Source of the DNA: Candidatus Pyrohabitans jungbluthii
Lineage (GTDB): Archaea > Hydrothermarchaeota > Hydrothermarchaeia > Hydrothermarchaeales > BMS3B
Assembly: GCA_002010065.2 (NCBI GenBank)
Contig: MTMD02000005.1
Span: 22,180-86,179, forward strand
Length of the DNA: 64,000 nucleotides
Direction: 5' to 3'
Notes under the pieces: generated by a model
Database searches by the model: none
What the model was told of the DNA's origin: nothing
Seen by the model: only the letters and a program-made list of their open reading frames with translations
Translations under genes and position numbers: made by a program
Shown here: positions 2,040-3,516 of the stretch, one piece after another
How the letters are laid out: each line of letters opens with the position of its first letter
Numbering within the stretch: the stretch's first letter is position 1

Positions 2040-2049
2040 TTATAAATAT
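2040..2049 (+). promoter_or_regulatory. Strong TATA box for the Cys-peptide gene
   Basis: TTATAAATAT lies 33-42 bp before the ATG at 2082, placing the transcript start near 2070. The short leader carries AGGGTGATT, a good Shine-Dalgarno sequence, 2071-2079. The preceding 60 bases are AT-rich. Confidence 0.6.
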
Positions 2050-2081
2050 CCCACAGAATCAAAAATAGTCAGGGTGATTAA

Positions 2082-2150
2082 ATGAAAATCGTGAAGAAGG
2101 AGAAGAAAGTCGCATATGCGACCTGCAAGTGTCACAAGAGCTGCATGTAG
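2082..2150 (+). CDS. 22-residue Cys-rich peptide, candidate RiPP precursor
   Basis: ATG to TAG encodes a basic 13-residue head (MKIVKKEKKVAYA) and a compact tail, TCKCHKSCM, with three cysteines (CXCX3C). It has its own TATA box (2040-2049) and Shine-Dalgarno (AGGGTG), and a T-rich terminator directly after the stop. The layout of a short leader with a Cys core, close to a radical SAM enzyme having a PqqD-like domain and a SPASM domain, is that of ribosomally made, post-translationally modified peptides such as sactipeptides and SCIFF. That parallel is established for families; the assignment here is inference. It could instead be a small metal-binding peptide. Confidence 0.6.
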   Translation: MKIVKKEKKVAYATCKCHKSCM

Positions 2151-2151
2151 C

Positions 2152-2169
2152 TCTTTTTCTTTTATTTTT
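2152..2169 (+). terminator. T-rich terminator after the Cys-peptide gene
   Basis: Directly after the TAG come runs T5, T4 and T5 within 18 bases, typical of archaeal intrinsic termination. It would let the peptide be made in excess over the downstream enzyme genes by partial read-through. Confidence 0.45.
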
Positions 2170-2180
2170 GAGGTGATGGC

Positions 2181-2321
2181 ATGGACTTAACCGAAGAGAT
2201 TCGAGCGAGAGTGTGCAAGCGCTGCGACTTCTACAAAGAGGGTGAAACTCTAGAGTGCGCCGCCTTTAAGACGGCAAAGCGCTTGGTTGAGCAGGGCAGG
2301 ATTAGTTTGGACGAGATATAA
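2181..2321 (+). CDS. 46-residue Cys-containing small protein
   Basis: The ATG at 2181 is preceded by GAGGTGAT at good spacing and the frame ends at TAA 2319-2321. The product carries VCKRCDFY and LECAAF, so CXXC plus a third cysteine, then a Lys/Arg helix and an acidic end. It is the shape of a small zinc or Fe-S knuckle, not of a signal peptide. It stops 13 bp before the start of the SPASM radical SAM gene and probably shares its transcript. It could be a second substrate, a carrier or chaperone for the peptide, or an unrelated small metalloprotein. I do not recognise a family. Confidence 0.6.
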   Translation: MDLTEEIRARVCKRCDFYKEGETLECAAFKTAKRLVEQGRISLDEI

Positions 2322-2334
2322 ACTGCGCATTGCC

Positions 2335-3516
2335 ATGTACCCCAGACTTAAGAACTGTGTGCTTCGCGCAGGCGAGGGCTATTTTCTTTACAACTACGTT
2401 GAGGATGAGGTTTACGAGCTTGACCTCGAAGCGATGGAGCTGCTGCGCCGCTTCACAGGGAAAAACAGCCTCGAAGCTCTTGCCCGTGAATTTGGAGAGA
2501 AAGAGGTAAGGGAGGCGGTGGAGTACCTTCTGAGCGAGGGGTGCCTCGTTGATGAGCGTTGCGAGGATGCGCCGCAAAGCTTCGCCGTCGAGGGCTTTAC
2601 ACCATCGCTGCGCTACCTCCAGCTTCACATCACAGAGCGGTGCAACTTAGCATGCAGGCACTGCTACCTGGGCGAGAAGTCGCAGGTTGATCTGCCCAAG
2701 GAGCTGGCGTTTAAGGCTGTGGAGGAGTTCTCCAGCTTTGGATGGAAGCTTTTAATCACAGGGGGCGAGCCCCTGCTTTCCCCATACTTCTGGAAGCTGG
2801 CAAGCTTCGCTTCTCGCCAAGGGGTACGCGTGGTGGTGCTCACCAACGGCACGCTTGTCAGCGAAGCTACGGCGAAGAAGCTGGCTGAGCATGTGCATGA
2901 GGTGCAGATTAGTTTAGACGGCATTAAGCGTGGGCATGAAGTGCTACGTGGAGAGGGAAGTTTCGCCAAAGCTGTGCGCGGAATAAGGGCGGCGAGCAAA
3001 TATATGAGGGTGAGTGTTGCTACCATGATTCACCGGGAGAATCTAAAAGAATTCCCGCAGCTTGAGAAGCTTGTTAAAAGCCTGGGTGTAGAGGAGTGGA
3101 GCCTGGATGTACCCTCGCCGAAGGGGAGTCTGCTGGAAAATACAGAGCTTCTTCCACCCCGCGAAGAGGCGGCGCGGATATACTCGAGGTACGGCTTCTC
3201 CTCAGGCGTGCATGAGGGCAGCGCCGACTATGCGTGCGGCGCTCATCTGTGTTCAGTCAATGTCAAGGGCGAGGTGACGAAGTGCGGATTCTTTGAGCGC
3301 GGAGTGGGCAACCTTGCAGAAATTTCACTTAAGGAGGGCTGGGAGAGGATAGTTGAGAACTACCTGCCAAAGCTGAGCGAACTCGCTTGTGCAGGTTGCA
3401 AATACCTCAGCGCCTGCAGGGGCGGGTGCAGATTCAGGGCGCTAAGCGAGGGAGACTTTTGGGGCAAAGATAGCTTTCTATGCCTTCTCCACTCAAAGAT
3501 GCACAGTCTTCAGTGA
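2335..3516 (+). CDS. PqqD-like/radical SAM/SPASM peptide-modifying enzyme
   Basis: A 393-residue enzyme. Residues 1-80 resemble the PqqD-like peptide-recognition fold (a short beta region, then helices around LEAMELLRRF and AVEYLLSEG). The radical SAM core starts with ERCNLACRHC (Cys103, Cys107, Cys110) and has ITGGEPLL near residue 142. The C-terminus has a full SPASM pattern: a Cys pair around VKGEVTKCG, then CAGCKYLSACRGGC (CX2CX5CX3C) and a final Cys in FLCLLH, enough for auxiliary 4Fe-4S clusters. Enzymes of this build crosslink or modify small peptides. I chose ATG 2335: the frame also opens upstream at TTG 2287, but that would lie inside the 46-residue gene. Its stop overlaps the convergent CpXC gene by 7 bp. 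Substrate is inferred to be the Cys peptide at 2082. Confidence 0.85.
   Translation: MYPRLKNCVLRAGEGYFLYNYVEDEVYELDLEAMELLRRFTGKNSLEALAREFGEKEVREAVEYLLSEGCLVDERCEDAPQSFAVEGFTPSLRYLQLHITERCNLACRHCYLGEKSQVDLPKELAFKAVEEFSSFGWKLLITGGEPLLSPYFWKLASFASRQGVRVVVLTNGTLVSEATAKKLAEHVHEVQISLDGIKRGHEVLRGEGSFAKAVRGIRAASKYMRVSVATMIHRENLKEFPQLEKLVKSLGVEEWSLDVPSPKGSLLENTELLPPREEAARIYSRYGFSSGVHEGSADYACGAHLCSVNVKGEVTKCGFFERGVGNLAEISLKEGWERIVENYLPKLSELACAGCKYLSACRGGCRFRALSEGDFWGKDSFLCLLHSKMHSLQ

Follow-up and report, generated by a model that had tools for sequence, protein, structure and literature searches.

A candidate family of radical SAM-associated cysteine micro-peptides linked to copper genes in archaea and bacteria

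In a 64,000-nucleotide stretch of the deep-sea archaeon Candidatus Pyrohabitans jungbluthii (Hydrothermarchaeota; GenBank assembly GCA_002010065.2, contig MTMD02000005.1, positions 22,180 to 86,179 of the forward strand; hereafter the window) we find a cassette of three genes, encoding a 22-residue cysteine peptide, a 46-residue cysteine protein and a 393-residue radical S-adenosylmethionine (SAM) enzyme. We propose, with a probability of about 63%, that it represents an unreported family of ribosomally synthesised and post-translationally modified peptides (RiPPs), in which one maturase would serve several copies of the precursor and the product would be a thiol peptide binding Cu(I). The parts of this proposal differ in strength: peptide and enzyme are very probably precursor and maturase; a role of the peptide in copper handling, suggested by the gene neighbourhoods, is likely; a cross-link of the cysteines as the modification is about an even bet. 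The sequence alone would be compatible with a thioether or with another change, and with the carrying, the storage or the sensing of copper. Searches of the open-licence literature, in which the core was also looked for as letters, gave no description of the peptide family.

The cassette and the conservation of the peptide

The features of the locus, with what each rests on, are the following.

2040-2048, + strand: TATA-like box TTATAAATA before the peptide gene (sequence alone)
2073-2078, + strand: GGTGAT, upstream of the peptide frame (sequence)
2082-2150, + strand: putative precursor peptide of 22 residues, MKIVKKEKKVAYATCKCHKSCM, with a basic, leader-like N-terminus and the core CKCHKSC(M) (sequence, homologues, synonymous substitutions, core counts)
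2151-2169, + strand: T-rich stretch from the peptide gene to the next ribosome site, a possible partial terminator (sequence; the sister-genome copies L003 and L005 share it)
2181-2321, + strand: conserved accessory protein of 46 residues, MDLTEEIRARVCKRCDFYKEGETLECAAFKTAKRLVEQGRISLDEI, with the motif CxxCDFYKEG.xLECxA, the third gene of the cassette (alignments, two-helix model)
2335-3516, + strand: putative peptide maturase of 393 residues (ATG at 2335, stop ending at 3516), with a domain like a RiPP recognition element (RRE), a radical SAM domain and a SPASM domain (PF04055, motifs, structure model)

The 22-residue frame, ending TCKCHKSCM, is present as an initial annotation of the window had described it. 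That annotation also gave the frame signals of its own: the TATA-like box and GGTGAT stand, but the terminator amounts to a T-rich stretch which runs into the ribosome site of the 46-residue gene, so that no clear transcription end is found there. Peptide and enzyme are indeed neighbours, but the conserved 46-residue gene lying between them had been overlooked.

The frame is a real protein gene under protein-level selection. Its copy in the sister genome G004 differs by 6 bases, all synonymous, and by no amino acid; over 17 copies, the synonymous share of the codon differences is 44% in the peptide frame, whereas the remaining forward frames give 9% and 6%. The excess of synonymous differences upholds the conservation as protein among relatives on which the initial annotation had made its reading depend. 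Homologues were found in 13 of 61 genomes searched, all 13 within the phylum of the window, and a profile search places the peptide in 13 of the 23 genomes of that phylum. A chance open frame is ruled out by the substitution pattern and the homologues together; a leader or attenuator frame is ruled out by the bacterial gene order, with the peptide after the enzyme, and by stand-alone copies on either side of their neighbours.

M1, K5, K8, Y12, C17 and C21 are invariant in the first 22 copies, and the family follows the pattern M.I+K..K....CKCxxSC(x) with a length of 19-22 residues. Over 77 copies no core position departs from the consensus more than once: C (76), K (76), C (77), x, x, S (76), C (77); since this set was partly collected by the motif pattern, the conservation is somewhat circular there, which does not apply to the Hydrothermarchaeota and profile hits. 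The residue following CKC is histidine in 36 of the 77 copies and lysine in 20, and the bacterial copies (37 of 77) stop exactly at the last cysteine. Neither the peptide nor the 46-residue protein matches NCBIfam, Pfam or PHROGs, and the plasmid collection gave no match. The precursor had been called exceptionally short; short it is, at 20-22 residues, but comparable with PqqA, whose length is about 22-24 residues. Precursors of this size are so short that gene finders likely miss them. In one genome (G007) the copy adjacent to the enzyme, L017:1501-1566, has a degenerate core, SCAQCHKGC, and the stand-alone copy retains TCKCHKSC.

The enzyme, its partner and the co-occurrence of peptide and enzyme

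The enzyme belongs to the SPASM subfamily of the radical SAM superfamily. The Pfam scan recognises radical SAM only (PF04055, E=4e-22), with the motif CX3CX2C at C103, C107 and C110, invariant in 60 sequences. The SPASM pattern is complete, as the initial annotation had it: C301, G312, C317, C352-X2-C355-X5-C361-X3-C365 and C383, where C301, C317, C352, C355, C361 and C365 are invariant in the same 60 sequences and C383 and G312 are conserved in at least 90% of them. In the structure model (mean confidence, pLDDT, 95.0) the N-terminus consists of four short strands then three helices, an RRE-like order, and appears to take the winged-helix RRE fold, as judged through full-length structure alignments only. 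The closest solved structure is SkfB (Z 27.9, 4.8 A over 330 residues), followed by SuiB with its bound precursor (Z 26.5, 3.7 A over 367 residues), which aligns with residues 1-387 of the model, N-terminal domain included; CteB, anSME and PqqE come next, by fold and also by profile. The N-terminus had been described as PqqD-like: the fold of the model and the alignment with SuiB agree with this, but at E<=1 the Pfam PqqD profile matches none of the N-terminal domains taken from seven enzymes of the family.

By pattern, the 46-residue protein can be recognised beside the enzyme at 43 of 80 enzyme loci, and C12, C15, F17 and C26 are invariant in 21 aligned sequences. It is modelled as two helices (pLDDT 90.5), and a fold search with this model gave no significant match. 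In Nitrospirae a longer version contains two such motifs, and in a contig of Desulfobacteria (L085) the region is apparently fused to the N-terminus of the enzyme.

The enzyme profile yielded these 80 loci in Methanoperedens, Archaeoglobus, Geoglobus, Asgard archaea, Nitrospirae, Deltaproteobacteria, Dehalococcoidia and Actinobacteria, and 39 of them have a short frame with the ending C.C..[SG]C at most about 700 bases from the enzyme. The peptide is upstream of the enzyme in Hydrothermarchaeota and Archaeoglobi, and mostly downstream in Methanoperedens and bacteria. Peptide and enzyme together are present in Hydrothermarchaeota, the host phylum, in the Archaeoglobus phylum, Nitrospirota, Methanoperedens, Syntrophaceae, Dehalococcoidia and Actinobacteria. 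The archaeal RiPP locus that had been proposed is thus found in archaea, but not in them alone, and often with the opposite gene order.

Genome by genome, the encoded peptide tracks the enzyme, as expected of a RiPP precursor and its modifying enzyme. In the Archaeoglobus phylum (246 genomes) 18 of the 19 enzyme-bearing genomes contain the peptide against 0 of the 227 others (Fisher 2e-26); in Nitrospirota (245 genomes) the figures are 72 of 80 against 2 of 165 (Fisher 5e-50), the two genomes having the peptide without the enzyme being G442 and G563. Among 40 further genomes picked for carrying the enzyme, 38 contain the peptide. One other genome, G014 (89% complete), has the peptide and no detected enzyme. 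The relatedness of the genomes inflates these P values; nevertheless, the near absence of the peptide where the enzyme is missing is hard to explain otherwise. The co-occurrence that the initial annotation had proposed as a check is therefore found, and its proposal that the peptide is the substrate of the enzyme is strongly supported by this co-occurrence, by the adjacency across lineages and by the protein-level conservation.

Extra copies of the peptide and the copper link

Two to four copies of the peptide are carried by 23 of 51 peptide-bearing genomes, and most of the extra copies lie away from the enzyme. When the neighbours of these stand-alone copies are grouped by similarity, heavy-metal P-type ATPases come first with 11 loci and thioredoxin-like proteins second with 10; next are flavin adenine dinucleotide (FAD) proteins resembling geranylgeranyl reductase (8), CcmE (4) and CcmF-type proteins (4); YHS proteins, Met-rich proteins, DUF411 and cupredoxin-like frames also occur, partly identified by inspection. 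The stand-alone copies are enriched near copper ATPases (TIGR01511): 11 of 52 lie within 5 kb of one, against 0.78 expected (P 2e-10). This test being post hoc, we repeated it in 27 Nitrospirota genomes new to the analysis; 15 of their 34 stand-alone copies lie within the same distance, against 0.39 expected (P 6e-21). Both P values assume that copies are independent, those of related genomes included, and that genes are placed uniformly; the positional tests use genome-search coordinates and rounded genome sizes. The ATPases examined contain CPC or CPH in the ion path, several with the MS motif expected for copper types; the one of L185 may serve a different metal. The initial annotation had expected the three cysteines to become thioether-linked or metal-binding; the neighbouring genes speak for copper, which it had not anticipated.

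The clearest copper-linked locus is L219, in a genome of the Archaeoglobus phylum. It starts with an Lrp-family regulator carrying a TRASH domain and continues, on one strand, with a CPC-ATPase (CopA) that includes an HMA domain, a CopZ-like HMA protein encoded as a separate gene, the peptide at a distance of 17 bases from it, the 46-residue gene and the enzyme; CcmF and CcmH lie about 2 to 4 kb beyond the cassette. The CcmH-domain protein of this locus (L219:50-487, - strand; PF03918, E=2e-18) adjoins CcmF; CcmH was called universally absent from archaeal genomes in a 2022 paper (PMC9084895). In the single-contig genome of L208, a stand-alone copy is flanked on one side by a thioredoxin-like gene and on the other by a rhodanese, with DUF411 and Met-rich proteins nearby.

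We thus picture the following sequence of events. The RRE-like domain of the enzyme would bind the basic N-terminal half of the 20-22-residue precursor, and the radical SAM and SPASM clusters would modify the core CKCxxSC at the C-terminus, the likeliest outcome being a cysteine cross-link or a different change to the invariant Cys, Lys or Ser; the 46-residue protein may assist the enzyme, and this single enzyme may also serve the precursor copies encoded elsewhere. The finished peptide would most likely bind Cu(I) through the thiolates of its cysteines and the frequent histidine, working with ATPases of the CopA/CopB type as a small copper carrier or buffer, and in archaea it might also act near the cytochrome c maturation genes. 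One may go further and see, in archaea and bacteria, a modular Cu(I) carrier made by O2-independent enzymes, one maturase serving near-identical precursors each placed in a client operon (copper exporter, cytochrome c maturation, oxidase); we hold this extension tentatively, at somewhat less than even odds.

Several observations weigh against a copper RiPP. The hosts are mostly anaerobes, where free copper should be scarce. Only 2 of 29 enzyme-adjacent copies are near a copper ATPase, which is not a significant enrichment, and the majority of the stand-alone copies have none nearby either, some of these lying at contig ends. The thioredoxin-like, CcmE/CcmF and FAD-protein neighbours would also suit a thiol-redox or haem role. 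Finally, in Asgard genomes a homologue of the enzyme occurs with no peptide or with a weak match alone. Two of these homologues (L065 and L068, 40-41% identity) have no peptide detected in their genome and no 46-residue gene nearby, which suggests a different substrate or a divergent core.

Alternative functions, known systems and neighbouring genes

The same neighbours raise the question of cytochrome c maturation: the peptide could be a RiPP of this enzyme with a thiol-redox or haem role there, the copper link being indirect, through co-regulated efflux and extracytoplasmic thiol chemistry. The stand-alone copies do lie by CcmE more often than expected (4 of 52 against 0.33), as well as by CcmF and thioredoxin-like genes, the second copy of the window's own genome (G000:C8) is directly before CcmE, and CKCH resembles a shortened haem motif. 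Yet the histidine of the core is restricted to the 36 copies counted above, the link to copper ATPases is stronger and spans both domains of life, and CcmE is found in just 29 of the 51 peptide-bearing genomes, most bacterial ones being without it; with 22 of 51 lacking CcmE at E<=1e-4, cytochrome c maturation is weakened as a general function, and we consider this explanation unlikely. Somewhat less probable still is that the enzyme starts the synthesis of a small-molecule cofactor from the C-terminal residues of the peptide, as PqqE or the mycofactocin maturase would do. The build of the enzyme, a precursor length akin to PqqA, the bacterial copies ending at the last cysteine, and the FAD proteins and ATP-grasp genes recurring nearby would agree with such a scaffold; a scaffold would not be expected to have several paralogues per genome in different operons, the whole CKCxxSC motif is conserved, and the neighbourhood clusters contain no recurrent protease or dedicated cofactor-pathway gene.

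Since the 46-residue protein has invariant cysteines and lies directly before the enzyme, it might itself be the substrate, leaving the 22-residue peptide as an unmodified metal-binding micro-peptide or a regulatory frame. This is very improbable: the presence of the peptide goes with that of the enzyme from genome to genome, even where the two are unlinked, in bacteria the peptide lies downstream, which is not the place of a leader frame, and the apparent fusion and the two-motif version of the 46-residue protein suit a partner of the enzyme better than its substrate. That the product is a secreted antimicrobial or signalling peptide of the sactipeptide type is hardly credible, even if the best fold matches, SkfB and SuiB, are maturases of such peptides: antimicrobial peptide cores diversify, whereas this one is invariant across two domains of life, and the neighbourhood clusters around the cassette show no recurrent gene for export, immunity or proteolysis.

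As for the copper RiPP that we favour, its build has close relatives. SkfB, SuiB, CteB/SCIFF and AlbA share with the present enzyme the domain order, the clusters, the fold and a short cysteine precursor encoded beside the enzyme. Unlike the maturases of sactipeptide type, this family has a 46-residue cysteine partner and precursor copies in other operons, without antimicrobial context; and the matches listed for four family enzymes against the curated NCBIfam equivalogs (AhbD, NirJ, mycofactocin, SCIFF, PqqE, AlbA and others) all fall far under the cut-off, the best scoring 118.9 bits against 500. PqqA/PqqE and the mycofactocin maturase likewise pair a radical SAM-SPASM enzyme with a very short precursor, but here the precursors have a conserved cysteine core, exist in several copies and have no recognised cofactor-pathway genes around them. 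CopZ-type chaperones, encoded with CopA, are also small and use soft-metal ligands, and one lies side by side with the peptide in L219; the peptide differs by its 20-22 residues, the lack of an HMA fold and the tie to a maturase.

By build the cassette would therefore be a radical SAM RiPP system, and by its apparent role it resembles methanobactins and bufferins. The MNIO enzymes that make the latter two are oxidative. Methanobactins, bufferins and oxazolins are cysteine-based modified peptides handling copper, made by MNIO (DUF692) enzymes (PMC12452194, PMC3621798). The present peptides would share with them the cysteines and the tie to copper handling, here through genomic linkage and a conjectured chemistry, whereas the enzyme is a radical SAM protein and not an MNIO, and archaea carry it. 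The copper-binding RiPPs that we found in the literature are made by enzymes other than radical SAM ones, the MNIO being the best known; this family, if our proposal is true, would be made by a radical SAM enzyme, and a peptide of 20 residues would give a molecular answer to how archaea and deep-branching anaerobic bacteria handle Cu(I). Since the C-terminal CKCxxSC motif is simple and both the enzyme and its partner are defined, the chemistry can be tested directly.

Some neighbouring genes recur. The FAD protein resembling geranylgeranyl reductase is found by stand-alone copies at L124:5186-6286, L125:5497-6525, L130:7210-8322 and L132:1237-2364, among its 8 loci. In archaea a UbiE-like methyltransferase occurs near stand-alone copies and one enzyme locus (L122:9744-10361, L124:7132-7782, L208:7028-7639, L218:6886-7506), and in Syntrophaceae and related Deltaproteobacteria an ATP-grasp-like protein (PF02655) directly follows the cassette (L072:6232-7146 and 7 other loci). 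In the window, a radical SAM protein of 579 residues without curated family (234-1973, + strand) lies just upstream of the cassette; it is kept there in five genomes of the same family, is absent from this place in other families, and has 88-93% identity in close relatives and about 49% in genus g2.
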